Source: Porpolomopsis calyptriformis
Taxonomy: Eukaryota; Basidiomycota; Agaricomycetes; Agaricales; Hygrophoraceae
Assembly: GCA_951640195.1 (NCBI GenBank)
Contig: OX621166.1
Span: 806,001-870,000 of the forward strand
DNA length: 64,000 bases
Direction: 5' to 3'
The position numbers and the translations under genes were made by a program. Numbering within the stretch: the stretch's first letter is position 1; each line of letters starts with the position of its first letter. Shown here piece by piece: positions 17,001-61,744 of the stretch. The notes below the pieces were generated by a model. That model did not search any database. It saw nothing but the letters and a program-made list of their open reading frames with translations, and was not told the DNA's origin.

Positions 17001-17672
17001 GCAAGATGTGTAGCATCAGACCATAGCATCAGAGCTGCAATTACTTGCTCTCGATCACATTCAGGTTCTGGAGGCTGGGATTGGATCTTCACGTGTTCAT
17101 TCAAAAAGGCATCAGAATTGTAGACTTCATAGATAATGTGTTTGGGTGGTGTGTTGTCAGATCAGCGCCAAAACAATTGGAAAGGGGTGAAGTGAAAGGA
17201 CTTCACGGCTGCTTCTTGAAATGCAGACTTGACCACTTCAATTATTTGATGGTAAAAAACACCTTTCACTTCAAATTTGGGTGCTGCATCTTCTGATGCA
17301 TTCTTGACATCCTTAGCAGGAAGGGGAATGAAAACAGACATCTCCTTCCATCCATCCTTTACTGAAAATCCTGCACTGGTTTGATGGTCATCAAGACGCT
17401 TGAGCTCTCACGCTGCACTGAAGCCCATGAGGTCATTGAAGTTGAAATCCTTTGAGAGGAGAACATTATTGACAAGAGTATCAAGGTCAGCATTTGATTT
17501 CATTGTGGAGCCATTGTAATACCAGTTCATTAGGTTAAAAACTGTCCCATTGAGGAAAGGCTTGTAGATATTATCTGTGATTGCCGAAAATGATGTCCCA
17601 AGTCCAGACCACCAGTTCCCAAGTCCACGATTGCCAACAGCAAGTCCAGGAAAATCACAAAAGGCATCCAAG
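14013..17672 (-). pseudogene. Plavaka transposase, central and C-terminal part
   Basis: Multi-exon minus-strand gene. Family landmarks appear in order: A-D-L-D-T-L-V near 17480, G-N-Q-S-K-Y ... K-P-T-S-F-G-A-H-H near 16930, L-L-H-E-F-E-L-G-V-W-K-A near 16175, G-E-L-E-H-R-R-V-K near 15420, F-L-W-V-R-W-F near 14700, then G-G-G-V-G-H (14350) and a long acidic tail ending at 14013. These match what I know of Plavaka transposases of Agaricomycetes, which cut and paste DNA. Introns with GT-AG ends separate the blocks. Some TGA codons at expected Arg positions suggest it is dead. The reading continues without a frame change into 24348-24911 once G2 and one CCAAG are removed. Confidence 0.85.
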
Positions 17673-18042
17673 TGTCACGGACACTTTTTTCTTTTTCCTT
17701 TTAGTCATACTTGATTAGTCTCCATTCCGTTCATCCTTCCGCTTTACCGTTTTATATATAGAGACTGATCACACATACCTTCCTTCCGACTCTTCACGAG
17801 TCACATTCCGTTTCCGCTATTCTTTTTGTGACTCTTCACTAGTCACATTCCGGATTCCGCTTTGTAATCGTACATACGACTGACTCATGGCGACTCAGGT
17901 AGTTAGTATATAAAGCCTGACCTCTAGTCAGTAGGTTAAGTTCGATTCCTAGTTAGCTCCCCCACTCTTTAGTCAAATTCCATTTCCCTCATCAGCCCCT
18001 CCAACACGAGAAGTAAAACCCTTCGATTACCGACTCATAACA
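17673..18042 (+). repeat. 5' LTR of G2
   Basis: Starts TGTCACGGAC, ends CTCATAACA. TATATAAA lies at 17907-17914. It is 370 bp, the same length as the 3' LTR. Confidence 0.96.
17907..17914 (+). promoter_or_regulatory. TATA box of the G2 LTR promoter
   Basis: TATATAAA in the LTR. The likely RNA start (AAGTTCGATTCCT, 17938-17950) begins 31 bases downstream. The start is inferred from spacing and from its complementarity to the primer site. Confidence 0.65.
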
Positions 18043-18054
18043 AGAATCAAACTT
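18042..18054 (+). promoter_or_regulatory. putative self-priming primer binding site of G2
   Basis: AAGAATCAAACTT at the LTR edge is complementary to 17938-17950 at 11 of 13 positions. The two mismatches are consistent with G-to-A change in the site. In Tf1-type elements the RNA 5' end folds back to prime here; that use in G2 is inferred. Confidence 0.55.
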
Positions 18055-18217
18055 CCTTCTTGCGCATCAAACTACTTCCACTCTGGATCCTGCCGAAGAC
18101 TTAACAAGGTCAATCTTCTCATCCGCAGATTCAGATACTCCCTTTCAACCCATAGCATTCCAAACCCCTACACAATCCATCATCCCCCTTTCCCCCTCGT
18201 CATCACCACTAACATCA

Positions 18218-19639
18218 ATGTCTCAACAAGAGTATGAAGCCGATCAATCCGTTCCCGCACCCGGACCCAGCAACATCCCCCCTACCATTCAAGAAGAAGA
18301 AGAAGTCGTCGTCCCATTTAACATGGAACAAGAGCTCAGAGATCTAAGAGCACAAATCGACCAGTTCCGTGGTTGGTACTACAGCAAAGTCGACGTCAAT
18401 GACGAACTCCGAAAGGAATTAAAAGCTCTCAAAGAAAGTCGACGAGAAGACTCAGAACCAGCCACCCCTCCCCCACAACGACGATCTGTACTTCGGGGAC
18501 CTGGACTTTCCCCCTCGAATCCTTTCGTTTACCCTGCGAGAAGAACCCAATCCGTCCAACCTCCTCTCCCATCGACCTTTCCCACTCAACTACCTACCCA
18601 GACAACTGCTCCCCCTACACTTCCAGCCCCCACCAAAATCAAAATCGCCAATCCAACTGAATATGATGGAACTTCAGAGAAGCTTGAAGATTTCATTCAT
18701 CAATGTTGACTCAATTTTGTGGTCAAGGACTACAACGACAAACAGAAAATCATCTATATGCTCTCTTATCTCAGTGACGGCAATCCACGGGCTTGGGGAC
18801 GACTGTTCACAGAAGGAGTTGATAGGACGAGGAATTTCATATGGGACTACGCAACATTCTTGGACGATTTCAGGGAAGCTTTCGGAAGGATTAACCCAGC
18901 AGCGAAGGCGTGGATCGAGCTAGAGAAAGTGAAGATGACAGGAACGATTGAAGACTACAACCTTCGATTCATGCAACATGCAGCAAGAACTGAGTACAAC
19001 GAGGCCGCCTTACTTCGGTTTTACAAAGCCGGACTCCCCCAGCCAATCCGAACGCGGATTTATTCAATGGACAACATGCCATCAACCTTGCTGGACTGGA
19101 CGACGAAAGCGGCCCAATTCGAAGAACAGTACCAGGAGCAACGAGCTGAACAAGCGTTGTGGTCAAGTCGAGACCAAAAAGGAAAGAAGTCTGAAGCCAA
19201 ATCGAATCCCCGAGGAAACCCTTCCCGCTCCACCACCGCCACCACTTCATCCCCGATCAAACAAGAATCGAGAGAAGCCTCTCTCAAGACAGCGAAATGA
19301 GACAACTCCTCCATCACTTGCTACAACTGTGGCAAAAAGGGACATTACGCCAACGAATGTCGAAGCCCATGTGCTGAAGACGTTCCGGCACGTCAAGAAT
19401 CCTCAACTTCTACTTGAGGAAAAGGAGGAAATCGCGGTCGAGGCAGAGGACGAAATGTCCGAATGATCAATCGGGTTGATACAGAAGAATTGGAAGCGCA
19501 GATAGAGGAAGTACCAGAGGATGACGAAAAGGAAAAAAGCACGGCTAAAGACGACCTGAAGGATATGGGAATCGCGAATTGGGACAAGGAGAGACGGGCT
19601 GCGCTAGCTCGAGCGTTAAAAGAGCAAAAGGATTTTTAG
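18218..19639 (+). pseudogene. gag: gypsy G2 gag
   Basis: Starts ATG 18218 (MSQQEYEADQ) and ends with TAG at 19637-19639. The N-terminus is acidic with a heptad-like segment. The capsid-type Retrotrans_gag region spans about 18640-19130 (D-G-T-S-E-K-L-E-D-F ... W-I-E-L-E-K-V-K). A CX2CX4HX4C zinc knuckle lies at about 19320-19360 (C-Y-N-C-G-K-K-G-H-Y-A-N-E-C) and an Arg-Gly box near 19430. Three in-frame TGA codons (18707, 19298, 19415) replace Arg codons. Gag would build the particle and bind the RNA. The start was chosen because it is the first Met of the open frame and follows a leader of about 175 bases after the LTR. Confidence 0.9.
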
Positions 19640-19673
19640 TCCGGCCAAGTGCTAAATGCCCGAGCACTTTGGC
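19631..19673 (+). promoter_or_regulatory. putative -1 frameshift signal of G2 with hairpin
   Basis: Zero-frame codons are GAT TTT TAG on a run of five T. Pol is open in the -1 frame from here. A hairpin follows, with arms GCCAAGTGCT (19644-19653) and AGCACTTTGGC (19663-19673), ten pairs with one bulge and a nine-base loop, about five bases after the stop. This is the usual shape of a -1 stimulator. Confidence 0.7.
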
Positions 19674-22600
19674 TGAGTCCCATGTATGTGTACTATCATC
19701 TATGAAAAGTTTTCGTTTTCTTGGCACACTTGAACAGGGCAAAGGCGCTCTCGAATTCTATCTTTGGATCATGAGTGCCGACAATCTTCGACGAGTGGCT
19801 ATCATAGCACTCATTGACTCTGGCGCCTCAGGGAATTTTATTGACGGAGCATTCGTTCGTCAAATGGAGATATCGACCTATCCGTTGGATGAGGTTATAC
19901 CGGTAAGAAACGCTGATGGTTCCGAGAACCGAGGAGGTCCCATCACGCATGACACAGACCTGTTTATCGAGGCACCAGATCTATCTTTTCGAGAACGAAT
20001 CCGGTTGGAGGTCACCAACTTAGGAAAAAAGCAACAGGTCATCCTCGGCTTCCCATGGCTCTTGCGACACAACCCCACCATCAATTGGACAAAAGGCACC
20101 TTAACCTTTGCATCTGGTGACACACTGTTCAGTAGTATGCGAGTCGGAGTGTTGCCCCCACAGGAAGAACTCTATGTCTTTGATTCGAGTCTGAAACATG
20201 ACTCCTTTATCCGTTTGGTCGGAGTTGACCACTCCCGACCAGTTTCCATCGAGGAGGACATCAAATCCTTCATTCCCAGTCGTTATCACAATTTCTGGCG
20301 TGTTTTCCATATCGCAGAATTTGACAAACTTCCTCCTCGACGTCCCTTTGATCATGCGATCAACCTCTACCCGAACACCAAATTTCAAGTCAGAAAACTC
20401 TATCCCCTTTCCCCCTATGAACAGGTGGAACTTAATAAGTTTATTGATGAAAATCTCAGAACAGGTCGGATACGTCCATCGAAATCACCACAAGCTGCTC
20501 CTTTCTTCTTTGTGAAAAAGGCTGAAGAGATCAATGCCAAAGGTCTCAGTGCTGGTCTACGTCCCATCCAGGACTATCGCTACATCAACTCGAAAACCAT
20601 TCCTGATCGTTATCCCCTCCCCCTTCTATCGGAAATTCTCCAAGTGCCGAAGCTTGCTACTGCTTCGCTCTTCACTGTCATCAATATTCGATGGGGATTT
20701 AACAACATATGACTCAAGGAAGGCAACGAGTGGAAGGCAGCTTTCATCACCAATCGAGGACTCTTTGAACTGACTGTCATGTTCTTTGGACTACGAAACT
20801 CCCCGGCATCCTTTCAACGAATGATAGACATTCTCTTTAAACCCGTTCTGGACTCTGGCTGTGTTCACATCTATATTGACGACATTCTCATTATAGGCGA
20901 CACCCCTGAAGAAATCCGCCACTGGACCGACGAGACCCTCAAACTCATGGAGAAGAATCAACTATCCGCCAAACCCGTCAAATGCTAAATGGAGAAGACC
21001 TCTGTTACATACCTTGGTACGATCATCAGCAAAGGTCAACTCACTATCAACCCAAAAAAGGTAGACGCCATTATCAATTGGCCGACACCCCAAAAGCTGC
21101 GAGACCTCCAATCCTTCCTTGGCACCACCAACTTCTGGCGTCGTTATATCAAAAGTTTCTCCTCAGTCGTTCGTCCCCTCTGTGGCCTTTTACGGAAAGA
21201 CCAACCTTAGGATTGGTCTCCTTTGTGTCAAAAAGCCTTTGAACAGCTCAAATATCTCGTCACTACAGCTCCTGTCCTTCTTACCCCACGGCTAGACCTT
21301 CCTTACCTCTTGGAGACCGATGCCTCTGATTTCGGTATTGGCGCGGTCTTATCTCAAAAACACAACAATGGTTGGCACCCTGTTGGCTTTTTCTCGAAGT
21401 CCCTACTCCCTGCCGAGTACAACTATCCTACCCATGACCTGGAGATGCTTGCGATCATCACTTCCCTCAAATATTGGCGCTATCTTTTAGAGGGCGCAAG
21501 GGATACTGTATTGATAAAAATGGACAATTTAGCGCTCAAGTATTTCATGCAGAACAGATCCCTCTCCAGACGACAAGCACGTTGGATGGAATTCTTAGGC
21601 AGATTCGACTTCAAGATCGAGTATTCCCCTGGAGTCAAGAACAAAGCCGATGGACTCTCCCGCCGACCCAACCACCGTTGTACAGAAAAGGAAGAACTAG
21701 AAGGCAAAGCCCTCCTCCCCCCCGAACGTTTCATCAATGCTATCATTTCCATGTCCGAACCCTCTTTCATGTCGAGACTTCGCTTCCCCGACTTCAATCA
21801 AATCCCAGAGGACATTCGCATCAAATTATCCGATTCCTCTTCCGGCTACTCCTTCACTGACGGAATTGTGAGAGATGCAGGAGATCGTATTGTCGTGCCA
21901 GCGGACGTATCGCTACGCACAGAGATAATTCGATTGACCCACTCCCTACCCCATGGAGGCCATCCCGGAATCGAGAAGACATGTGAACTTGTGTTGCGGA
22001 ACTACACCTGGAGTAGTGCTGCCCCTGACATCCGTGTATTCGTATCGTCCTGTCCGACCTGCCAACAAGTCAAGCTCTATCCTTCAAAGCCTGCAGGTCT
22101 CTTGGAACCCATTCCCCCTTCGTCTCAACCTTGGGAAGAAATCACCGCCGATCTAATCGTGGAACTCCCCCAATCATCTGGCTACGATGCTGTCTTAGTC
22201 GTTGTCAATCGCTTTACCAAACGCGCTCACTTTATCCCGATGACATCAAATATTTCTGCAGAAGGAGTCGCAAAACTCTTTAGGGACAATGTATGGAAAC
22301 ACCACGGTTGGCCAAAGAAGATCATAACCGATCGAGGGACTCAATTCACTTCCAAATTCGCGAAAGCTCTCAACACTCATTTGGGAATCATCTCCAGTCT
22401 ATCCACCGCTTATCATCCCCAAACTGATGGTCAAACGGAACGCACCAATCAAGAACTTGAACAATACCTTCGTTTATATACAAACTTTATGCAAGATGAT
22501 TGGTCCAACTGGCTATCCCCAGCTGAATTCGCGTATAATAACCGACAGCACTCCTCGACGAAACACACTCCCTTCTACCTTGACACTGGCTAACATCCCT

Positions 22601-23199
22601 TCATCCCATCTATCCCCGCGACCCCTACTTCCAACCCTGCAGCAGATGCCTTCCGCGATCATCTCACAGAAGCCCACGAAGAAGCCACAAAAGCTCTAGA
22701 AACAACAGCTGAAACCATGAAACGCTTTGCAGATTGTAAACGGAAAGATACCCAACTCCAAATAGGTCAATTTGTTTATCTTGATACCCGTAACTTAAAA
22801 ACAGGTCGTCCAACCCTCAAGCTTGATGTCCGACGTACTAGACCATTCAAAGTTCTAGAAAAAATCGGAAAAGTCTCTTATCGCCTGGCCCTTCCCTTAT
22901 CATGGAAAATACACGACGTCTTTCACGTTTTACTCCTGAGACCCGCTAACATTAACTCCGATCTCCACCCAGAGGAAGTAAATGATAATCTCCGCCCACC
23001 TCCGGATATCATCCAAGAGAAGGAAGAATATGAGGTCGAACAAATTCTCCAACATCACGGGTCCACCCGATGTCGTACGTATTTGGTCAAATGGGTCAGC
23101 TATCCCATTGAAGAAGCAACTTGGGAGCCGAAGAAGAACCTCCTCCATGCGAAAGAACGAATTCTAGAATACGAACACTCAATTCAAACGGCGACCTAA
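19636..23199 (+). pseudogene. pol: gypsy G2 pol with chromodomain
   Basis: A single frame through protease (L-I-D-S-G-A-S-G-N-F near 19815), RT (Y-I-D-D near 20875), RNase H (E-T-D-A-S near 21316), integrase zinc domain (H-G-G-H-P-G ... C-P-T-C-Q near 21955-22065) and catalytic core. The chromodomain (about 23022-23170) keeps the aromatic cage positions Y (23029), W (23092) and Y (23101). Four nonsense codons break it: TGA 20710, TAA 20986, TAG 21208 and TAA 22591. Family comparison shows the originals were CGA, CAA, TGG and probably CAA, all C-to-T or G-to-A. There is no frameshift, so death is recent. Pol is expressed from the gag frame by -1 slippage. Confidence 0.93.
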
Positions 23200-23318
23200 T
23201 CATTCTTTCACGGTATCAGCTCCCCTCGTTTATATTTTCACTTTTGTCACCTTTCCAAACTCCGACTTGTCCTTATAATCTCTTTCATCTCCGTCTTTCA
23301 CTAGGAATCGACATCGCT

Positions 23319-23897
23319 ATGCCCGCAGAACGCTCACACCAAACTGCTCGCAAGTCTACTGGTGGTCGTCCACCCCGCGCTCCTCGTATGTCCACTGGAG
23401 GACAACCCCCTCACCGCGCTCTCCCTCCACTCGCTTCCACCTCCTCCGCCTACGGTGAAGCTGAGCTCGCCGGACAACTCTGGCAACATAACCGTCGCGC
23501 GCGTAACCGGGACCTTCCTATATGGCCAGAAGAAATCGTCGCGCCACCCATCCCACCCGAGCAAATCATCGAGTCATTGCAGAAGGACGTCAAATACTAC
23601 AAAGACGAAATCGCGAGATTGAATGAAGAATTGTATAATCAAGGAATGAGCTTGGATGGAAAGAGAAGAGCAAGTGAGTATTGGCAAGAACAGGCCAAAC
23701 ACTGGGAGACGAAATATGAGGAAGTCGCAAAGGTACTTCCCCATCTTGATTCCCCGGCTCCTCCAGTTTTCCCAGGTCTGCTCATCGTTCCCCCCGGTTC
23801 GTCGTCGAACCCCATCACCATCCCCGATGACGACGACACTTCCCCGGCCGACATTATTTCCTTGTCAGCCACCGTCTCCAACAAGGACTTAGTTTAG
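23319..23897 (+). CDS. gypsy family 2 accessory protein with histone H3 tail-like N-terminus (G2 copy, intact)
   Basis: An intact 192-aa ORF between pol and the 3' LTR. Residues 8-16 are QTARKSTGG, identical to histone H3 residues 5-13, and continue R-P-P-R where H3 has K-A-P-R. A second piece, T-G-G-Q-P-P-H-R at about residues 26-33, recalls the H3 segment T-G-G-V-K-K-P-H-R. The mimic lysine (residue 12) equals H3 K9. Residues about 85-145 are charged with heptad-like spacing (coiled coil). The tail has P-I-T-I-P-D-D-D-D, acidic and slightly like a SUMO-interacting motif. I know no family with this design. Pol of the same element ends in a chromodomain, which usually binds methylated H3K9. 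The ATG at 23319 is used because the mimic starts just after it and G5 has the same start and length (579 nt). Confidence 0.8.
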   Translation: MPAERSHQTARKSTGGRPPRAPRMSTGGQPPHRALPPLASTSSAYGEAELAGQLWQHNRRARNRDLPIWPEEIVAPPIPPEQIIESLQKDVKYYKDEIARLNEELYNQGMSLDGKRRASEYWQEQAKHWETKYEEVAKVLPHLDSPAPPVFPGLLIVPPGSSSNPITIPDDDDTSPADIISLSATVSNKDLV

Positions 23898-23977
23898 TCC
23901 TTCCCCTCCTCCGCACCCGTCAACACTCTCGAAGCCGCCTCGAATTTTGGGACGAAATTCCTTTTAGTGTGGGTGTA

Positions 23978-24347
23978 TGTCACGGACACTTTTTTCTTTT
24001 TCCTTTTAGTCATACTTGATTAGTCTCCATTCCGTTCATCCTTCCGCTTTACCGTTTTATATATAGAGACTGATCACACATACCTTCCTTCCGACTCTTC
24101 ACGAGTCACATTCCGTTTCCACTATTCTTTTTGTGACTCTTCACTAGTCACATTCCGGATTCCGCTTTGTAATCGTACATACGACTGACTCATGGCGACT
24201 CAGGTAGTTAGTATATAAAGCCTGACCTCTAGTCAGTAGGTTAAGTTCGATTCCTAGTTAGCTCCCCCACTCTTTAGTCGAATTCCATTTCCCTCATCAG
24301 CCCCTCCAACGCAAGAAGTAAAACCCTTCGATTACCGACTCATAACA
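23978..24347 (+). repeat. 3' LTR of G2
   Basis: Starts TGTCACGG at 23978 after GGGTGTA and ends CATAACA at 24347, followed by TSD CCAAG. It is 370 bp and differs from the 5' LTR at about four A/G positions. Confidence 0.96.
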
Positions 24348-24911
24348 CCAAGGATATGTCTTGGTCTGGTTGATATGTTGGGAAGTTGGGATATCACCGG
24401 TAAAGTCCAAATTTGTTTGGTTCAGTTTCAAAGAAAGTGTGATTGGAGGGATTTGGGGAATTGGGAGGGTTGGGAGGATCAGGGATATGTTCAGACTCAG
24501 AAGCCTGAACTTCATTGTTCCATGATAGCAGCACCCGGGTAATAGGAGGGGGCATATGGGGTACTTTGGTTGTAGATGATAGTAGGTAATCATTATATTG
24601 TTGAGGGAATTGTCGGATGTAGCCAGAAGAGGTTGGGGGGGGGACATGGGCTTCAACATGATGATCGATAGCAGCTTGAAACTATTAAATATTATTTGTA
24701 TGAACTGACAATGTTTGCTAAAAAAAATAAGATGTACCTCTACATTTGCGTGATCATCAGGACCTTCCGAATATCCCAGTTCCTCTGCAATATCTCCTCC
24801 TGACCTCTGGGCAATTTTAGCTACTCGTTCAACTTCCGAATGCTCCTGATCTTTCTGGGCAAAATGAGAGATCCTTTTGACAACCTCTTTGCATGAGTTC
24901 CAGTGCTTCAT
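24348..24911 (-). pseudogene. Plavaka transposase, N-terminal part
   Basis: Minus-strand coding from about 24911 (M-K-H-W-N-S-C, the end of an N-terminal zinc-finger-like segment) through an exon ending near 24738. An intron of about 50 bp ending in AATAG follows, then an exon running to the G2 insertion point. The last residues before G2 (N-K-F-G-L-Y-R then Y-Q-P-D-Q-D-I-S-L) join in frame with D-A-F-C-D-F-P-G on the far side. This is where Plavaka proteins carry the conserved F-G-L-Y-R segment. The true start may lie a little upstream (to about 24950), where the frame has TGA codons. Confidence 0.75.
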
Positions 24912-61165: not shown

Positions 61166-61744
61166 CTAGGATAAGTCCTTGTCAGAAATGGCAGTCGACA
61201 GGGAAATAATGTCAGCCAGGGAAGTAACGTCGTCATCGGGGATGGTGATAGGGTTCGACGACGAACCGGAGGGAATAATGAGCGGACCTGGGAAAACAGG
61301 GGGAGCAGGGGAATCAAGATGAGGAAGTACCTTTGTGATTTCCTCATGTTTTGCTTCCCAATGCTTGGCCTGTTCTCACCAGTACTTGCTCGTTCTTCTT
61401 TCTCCATCCAGACTCAACCACTGACTGTACAGTTCTTCATTCAACCTCGCGATCTCGCTCTTATAGTAATCAACATCTTTTTTCAATGACTCAATGATCT
61501 GCTCGGGTGGGATGGGTGGTGCGACAATTTCCTTGGGCCATATGGTGAGGTCCCAGTTTCATGCACGTCGGTTGTGTTGCCAGAGTTGTCCAGCGAGCTC
61601 GGCTTCACCATAAGCGGATGAGGTGGAAGCGAGAGGAGGGGGAGCGCGATGAGGGGGTTGTCCTCCTGTGGACATATGGGGAGCATGGGGTGGACGACCA
61701 CCAGTAGACTTGCGAGCAGTTTGGTGAGAGCATTTGGCGGGCAT
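61166..61744 (-). pseudogene. family 2 accessory protein with H3-like tail (G5 copy)
   Basis: Same start and exact length (579 nt) as the intact G2 copy. Residues 8-16 are again QTARKSTGG (61723-61697), followed by R-P-P-H, and later S-T-G-G-Q-P-P-H-R. Two TGA codons break it, after R-R-A near 61560 and in the coiled coil near 61380. The H3-like core is unchanged while flanking residues differ (A-K-C-S-H against A-E-R-S-H; A-P-H against A-P-R). This suggests the core was under constraint when the element was active. The number of changes is small, so this is only suggestive. Confidence 0.8.

Follow-up and report, generated by a model that had tools for sequence, protein, structure and literature searches.

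A chromodomain-bearing gypsy retrotransposon of Porpolomopsis calyptriformis encodes an accessory protein with a histone H3-like tail, a candidate H3K9 mimic

Introduction

Methylation of histone H3 at Lys9 marks silenced transposons, and the residues around this lysine are the contacts of both the H3K9 writers and the chromodomain readers. Histone mimicry is known from viruses, as in influenza A NS1 and SARS-CoV-2 ORF8, and from host enzymes. In the case of NS1, a short C-terminal stretch resembling the H3 tail, described for the K4 mark, has been proposed to act on proteins that recognize that tail (PMC12937675), and the automethylated H3-like motifs of G9a and GLP create binding sites for HP1 (PMC9768651). 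Among the fungal chromoviruses of the Ty3/Gypsy class, the chromodomain of MAGGY binds H3K9me2/3 and has a cage formed by Y24, W45 and Y48 (PMC3350952).

Here we analyze a stretch of 64,000 nucleotides of the basidiomycete Porpolomopsis calyptriformis (the window; GCA_951640195.1, contig OX621166.1, positions 806,001 to 870,000). It contains a gypsy element, G2, which shares with chromoviruses such as MAGGY the LTRs, protease, reverse transcriptase (RT), RNase H, integrase and a chromodomain with a Y-W-Y cage, but differs from them in having an extra ORF (ORF3) between pol and the 3' LTR, which starts with an H3 tail. No such ORF is described for chromoviruses among the literature matches listed; likewise, no transposon-encoded H3 mimic was found among the matches listed from the literature searched, a body of work from which subscription journals mostly fall out. 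ORF3 has in common with the viral mimics a short H3-tail-like stretch in the protein of a parasite, and is distinguished from them by nine identical residues spanning the K9 site, by their position near the N terminus, and by its occurrence in a chromodomain-encoding LTR retrotransposon. With G9a and GLP it shares H3-like lysine sites, which in those proteins serve as substrates of H3K9 enzymes and as ligands of HP1 (PMC9768651); however, these are host enzymes, whereas ORF3 would be a predicted mimic encoded by a mobile element.

Architecture of the element

The chromodomain-bearing element G2 (17673-24347) is about 6.7 kb in length and has the organization of a chromovirus: two LTRs of 370 bp each are flanked on both sides by CCAAG, pol runs in the order protease, RT, RNase H, integrase, and the C terminus of the integrase bears a chromodomain with a methyl-lysine cage predicted from its sequence (Table 1). 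In the window copy both gag and pol are interrupted by in-frame stops, and the pol pieces were therefore scanned separately; ORF3, which begins 119 bp after pol, is open. Two pieces of the gag region gave no Pfam match to a retroviral gag family, and a CCHC knuckle is visible farther downstream in the same frame.

Table 1. Features of the gypsy element G2 and of the ORF3 copy in element G5 (window coordinates)
Feature	Position	Strand	Remarks
Target-site duplication CCAAG, left	17668-17672	.	From sequence
5' LTR (TG...CA)	17673-18042	+	366/370 identical to 3' LTR; repeat pair
gag region	18218-19300	+	In-frame stops in window copy
pol piece, aspartyl protease (PF08284)	19579-20712	+	Pfam
pol piece, reverse transcriptase (PF00078)	20713-20985	+	E 1.6e-13
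pol piece, RNase H (PF17919, PF17917) and integrase (PF17921, PF00665)	21223-22593	+	Pfam
Integrase C terminus, with a Tf2-1-like SH3 domain followed by the chromodomain	22717-23199	+	
Chromodomain (PF00385)	23023-23175	+	E 4.3e-12; HP1-type cage Y105, W126, Y129 (numbering of ORF 22717-23199)
Pyrimidine-rich leader between pol and ORF3	23200-23318	+	Possible internal promoter (inferred)
ORF3, 192-aa accessory protein: H3-like tail and predicted helical (coiled-coil-like) body	23319-23897	+	
H3-like segment, ORF3 residues 4-20 (ERSHQTARKSTGGRPPR)	23328-23378	+	
QTARKSTGG = H3 5-13	23340-23366	+	K12 codon 23352-23354
Second STGG unit, residues 25-34	23391-23420	+	Read as tandem duplicate of residues 13-22
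Predicted helices 80-107, 112-144	23556-23750	+	Residues 81-161 homologous to ORF-B
3' LTR	23978-24347	+	
Target-site duplication CCAAG, right	24348-24352	.	From sequence
ORF3 copy in G5	61172-61744	-	83% identical; 2 stops in ORF; QTARKSTGG kept (L075)

The H3-like tail of ORF3

The N terminus of the ORF3 product is MPAERSHQTARKSTGGRPPR. Its residues 8-16, QTARKSTGG, are identical to residues 5-13 of H3 and are followed by R-P-P-R, with K12 as the equivalent of H3K9. Aligned over residues 4-20 with the host H3 (ARTKQTARKSTGGKAPR), ORF3 has 10 identities and one conservative substitution (S for T) in the 13 positions up to the second glycine. H and R stand at the positions of H3 K4 and K14, and K12 is the sole lysine in the first 88 residues of the window copy and in residues 1-80 of 57 of the 61 copies examined. 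The initial annotation, which had singled out this ORF as starting with a copy of the H3 tail, proved exact on re-reading in its coordinates, frame, nine-residue identity and K12 register; the core is also preserved in the G5 copy, as it had stated, alongside the two stops of that ORF. A phmmer search of residues 1-40 against PDB chains agrees with its reading of the N terminus: it gave 126 hits at E<=1, the best at E 0.007. Every one of the 60 listed is histone H3 or a peptide of it, and R5-S6-H7 of ORF3 falls opposite R2-T3-K4 of H3. The expected number of chance nine-residue identities to H3 1-40 is ~1e-8 per protein of the length of ORF3, under uniform composition, and 0.004 over all six frames of the genome (33.5 Mb in 17 contigs). 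By this calculation a chance origin is excluded in practice, and the identity, which is beyond chance, lies at a modifiable lysine. The histone fold (PF00125) gave no Pfam match to ORF3 at E<=1, and by sequence it is only the tail that the two proteins have in common.

A weaker second match, T-G-G-x-x-P-H-R, which had been likened to H3 32-40, did not survive closer comparison. Of 87 copies, 52 have R at residue 32 and 25 have H there, and the segment MSTGGQPPRRAP, which comes after the H3-like stretch, repeats STGGRPPRAP (STGG-Q-PPR-R-AP for STGG-R-PPR-AP of the first unit). Hence, an internal tandem duplication is a better reading than a relationship to H3 32-40.

A single-sequence AlphaFold model of low confidence (mean pLDDT 53.7) has helices at residues 45-62, 80-107 and 112-144; residues 1-44, modeled like the rest with no alignment, have no secondary structure and low pLDDT.

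Conservation and selection across the genomic copies

A search of the genome with ORF3 at E<=0.01 recovered 130 stretches, some of them fragments or distant relatives. Ninety-eight of them reach residue 9 or earlier; 88 loci were fetched and 11 further ones were not, and 87 of the 88 were aligned, L096, which starts at residue 21, being left out. A DNA pattern for ARKSTGG has 70 occurrences genome-wide, of which 67 lie within copies of ORF3 and three in host H3 genes, and is thus restricted to ORF3 and H3; a reversed control pattern has two. All 67 places in ORF3 sit at the expected offset (63 at 27 bases and four at 36 bases). ARKSTGG is therefore kept in 67 of the 98 matches that reach residue 9 or earlier, so that the stretch, within this genome, is neither variable nor absent in most related elements, an outcome in favor of the initial proposal, which had named the opposite as grounds for its rejection.

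The full QTARKSTGG is intact in 62 of the 87 aligned copies. Eighty-five copies retain K12, and 4-5 stops are found in the two that do not; 86 retain S13. The R11 codon is changed in 19 of the 25 copies that lack the intact motif. Within the 55 copies used for dN/dS estimates (those with an ATG, no stop and fewer than five gapped codons, compared in pairs from different clusters), all nine residues are kept in 46; in the other nine, R11 has become H or C (seven copies) or a G has become S (two copies). Both changes of R11 are CpG transitions of its CGC codon; even so, the loss of the equivalent of H3 R8 in seven of the 55 stop-free copies counts against a reading of the tail as a mimic. The diverged subfamily represented by L080 (75% identical), which did not pass the filter for the dN/dS set, preserves QTARKSTGG behind a three-residue insertion. 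At the position of H3 T3, seven of the 87 copies have T; all are at most 74% identical to the window copy and decayed, some with insertions at that place, and this hint of a greater closeness to H3 in older copies is given no weight. In older copies, moreover, many Arg residues with CpG codons have become Cys or His, as would be expected if cytosines of silenced elements are methylated.

For residues 8-16 dN/dS is 0.040, against 0.154 for the whole of ORF3; other parts give 0.057 (81-140), 0.314 (21-47) and 0.390 (141-191), and the chromodomain of the same elements 0.160. No non-synonymous difference occurs among the stop-free copies at Q8, T9, A10, K12, S13 or T14, and the codons of T9, A10, K12, S13 and T14 differ often, in each case only synonymously. 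This per-codon comparison draws on 1403 pairs that are not independent of each other, and is given with no P value. The motif ranks sixth of 183 nine-codon windows by low pN, the five ahead of it being two that overlap it and the windows that begin at 138, 119 and 100. In a ranking of 182 windows by the proportion of copies that keep the commonest residues it comes 16th; hence, it is among the most constrained parts of ORF3 and not the only one. The combination of synonymous codon differences, constant residues and low dN/dS indicates that ORF3 is probably translated and that its tail is probably under selection, i.e. that the H3-like stretch has been kept by selection in a mobile element.

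These observations bear on the possibility that the ORF3 frame is untranslated, or read only as a frameshifted extension of Pol, in which case the H3-like stretch would be no N-terminal tail. In the window copy the frame indeed stays open upstream as far as 23121 and overlaps the final part of pol. However, the dN/dS over ORF3, the retention of the ATG in 83 of 87 copies, and stop-free copies with an open frame of just 197-206 aa, i.e. with a stop 5-14 codons before the ATG, make this reading highly improbable; a frameshift fusion as the main route was rejected. The pyrimidine-rich spacer that separates pol from ORF3 has TTATAAT in 13 of 15 copies inspected and resembles a small promoter. A spliced subgenomic mRNA was also considered: CACTAG and a pyrimidine tract precede ORF3 in the window copy, but the AG is missing in four of the 15 (L021, L060, L071 and L080), and a fixed 3' splice site was therefore dropped in favor of a putative internal promoter or reinitiation.

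Origin of the tail

The host H3 is encoded at three places, C2:3412919, C5:691287 (+) and C5:682829 (-), the two on C5 lying about 8.5 kb apart in opposite orientation. In all three genes an intron begins within the codon for the second glycine of STGG. The C2 gene has another intron just before Q5, with MARTK as its exon 1 and an exon 2 of 25 bases, which specifies QTARKSTG and the first base of the next glycine codon; these exons were inferred from GT...AG and the H3 reading rather than from transcripts. A single H3 exon thus matches the nine identical residues of ORF3; the likeness on both sides of them is weak (R-S for R-T, and P-R), and their right end coincides with the exon boundary in all three H3 genes, their left end in the C2 gene only. 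The small exon and the intron positions fit exon capture, and we consider the tail to have probably been captured from a host H3 gene, although similar edges could also arise if selection acted on QTARKSTGG alone. Taken with the conservation, the purifying selection and the register, the exon boundaries leave the original proposal of a capture or mimicry of the H3 tail well supported.

At the nucleotide level the window copy matches two of the three host H3 genes at 22 and 24 of 27 positions (P 0.25 and 0.05 for random synonymous coding). The best copies reach 26 and 25 of 27 (P 0.0003 and 0.010 for one draw, the copies having been chosen among many variants). The idea that the nucleotides prove capture was therefore dropped, synonymous matching to H3 being suggestive at most. 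This is also what favors the view that the tail is simply the Arg-rich end of a nucleic-acid-binding accessory protein, H3-like by convergence or as a historical leftover and with no H3-specific function. Such an account seems to us improbable in view of the nine identical residues in register, their constancy through synonymous divergence, and the position of K12 as the sole lysine of residues 1-80 in nearly all copies examined, which generic basicity would not require.

Another gypsy element of this genome has, in its ORF-B, a homolog of ORF3 residues 81-161 (30% identity, E 4e-10); ORF-B is found at 19 places at 82-100% identity. At the locus L080, where it was read, ORF-B sits downstream of an integrase C terminus and has this core in common with ORF3; unlike ORF3, it has no H3-like N terminus, and the adjoining integrase piece at this locus gave no match to the Chromo domain. 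Hence, judging from this one comparison at one locus, the tail seems to have been added to an accessory core in a chromodomain family. L080 (G000 C1:519700-523300) is itself of chimeric makeup, with an ORF3-like ORF followed, about 1.1 kb downstream, by the chromodomain-less gypsy integrase end and ORF-B. By position, this arrangement recurs at seven places, on C1, C2, C4, C5, C9, C11 and C12, which suggests a recombinant element that spread.

The chromodomain, the host H3K9 machinery and a proposed function

Aligned with HP1 (1kna), the G2 chromodomain has Y105, W126 and Y129 at the three cage positions (as defined in PMC3350952), and these are kept in 68, 67 and 68, respectively, of the 69 copies, out of the 87 loci, that had enough upstream DNA for this count (47 have a chromodomain free of gaps and stops). 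This HP1-type domain, which lies directly upstream of ORF3 in the same element and was absent from the initial annotation, is a second possible partner of the tail. On the side of the host, there is one match in the genome to the Pre-SET domain, in an open frame of 505 aa; Pre-SET marks the SUV39-type H3K9 methyltransferases. The chromo shadow domain of HP1 was not detected in the host genome by a search in which the positive control gave no match either.

We favor, with somewhat more confidence than doubt, the reading that ORF3 is an element-encoded mimic of histone H3K9 that acts on the H3K9-methylation pathway, either that of the host or through the element's own chromodomain. On this proposal ORF3 would consist of a flexible N-terminal tail, with a host H3 exon as its probable source, and a helical body; the body is likely to oligomerize and so would present several H3-like tails together. 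With H and R at the equivalents of K4 and K14, K12 would be left as the only lysine of the early part of ORF3 and may be methylated by the host Pre-SET enzyme, after which the tail could occupy chromodomains; alternatively, it might occupy the H3K9 methyltransferase itself. The predicted effect would be either that H3K9 silencing by the host is diverted away from the element, or that ORF3 becomes coupled to the chromodomain-bearing integrase.

A variant of this mimicry would be aimed chiefly at the element itself: the tail would be a ligand for the element's own integrase chromodomain, and a methyl-dependent complex of ORF3 and integrase would shield or deliver the integration complex. The chromodomain with a complete cage directly upstream, and the lack of a tail in the homologous ORF-B beside an integrase piece with no chromodomain match, are in its favor, but the contrast comes from a single pair of families, with ORF-B and its neighbor read at L080 alone, and a host methyltransferase would still be required. 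Moreover, the 150 chromodomain places scored among 718 candidates in the genome all come from other families (as judged by comparing coordinates by eye), whereas the ARKSTGG pattern is limited to ORF3 and H3; chromodomain elements in general are thus without an H3-like tail. We regard this variant as possible and clearly less probable than the broader proposal. We would put forward equally tentatively the notion of a closed reader-ligand pair, made up of an integrase chromodomain that reads H3K9 methylation and an accessory protein with an H3K9 tail derived from a small H3 exon. Here methylation by the host would make ORF3 a competitor of nucleosomes for both the element's integrase and host HP1, and this competition might set where and when the element inserts and damp its silencing. 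As to the other chromodomains in the genome, the places from other families number at least 150, several of them in open frames of over 1000 aa, and point to several largely intact chromodomain element families.

The tail could instead have been taken from H3 as a nuclear-import signal, recognized by an importin of the Kap123/importin-4 type, that brings ORF3 and its partners into the nucleus, with the chemistry of Lys9 being incidental. Residues 1-28 of H3 are a known nuclear localization signal recognized at K14 and K23, in which K14R has a minor effect on import (PMC5677370), and the tail of ORF3 is Arg-rich, with R at the K14 position. However, the import consensus calls for two lysines spaced by six or more residues (PMC5677370), and the window copy has one before residue 89; further, R17, R20 and R23 are more variable than Q8-T14 with R11 left aside. 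With the second import lysine missing, the first replaced by R, and the constraint centered on K12, this explanation is the weaker one, and we hold it to be unlikely.

Distribution

No relatives of ORF3 were found at E<=0.01 among 5.8 billion proteins, with either the single sequence or a nine-sequence alignment as query, and none in viral contigs. In contrast, the RNase H-integrase piece, used as a positive control, recovered 3393 proteins at E<=1e-20 among the 7994 scored, the best match at 68% identity and some of them named from Agaricomycetes; the set includes pol relatives at 56-73% identity, with the upper value reached over part of the query. Given that relatives of pol are present in the protein set and those of ORF3 are absent, possible explanations are a restriction of the feature to one lineage and a lack of small ORFs in the set.

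Implications

The sequence evidence suggests that this element imitates the very tag that is used to silence such elements, carrying as part of its own protein the tail of the histone that, when methylated at Lys9, marks silenced transposons. If true, this would be direct evidence of a counter-adaptation by a retrotransposon at the histone level, and the ORF3 tail would offer a natural peptide for testing the choice of sites by chromodomain integrases.
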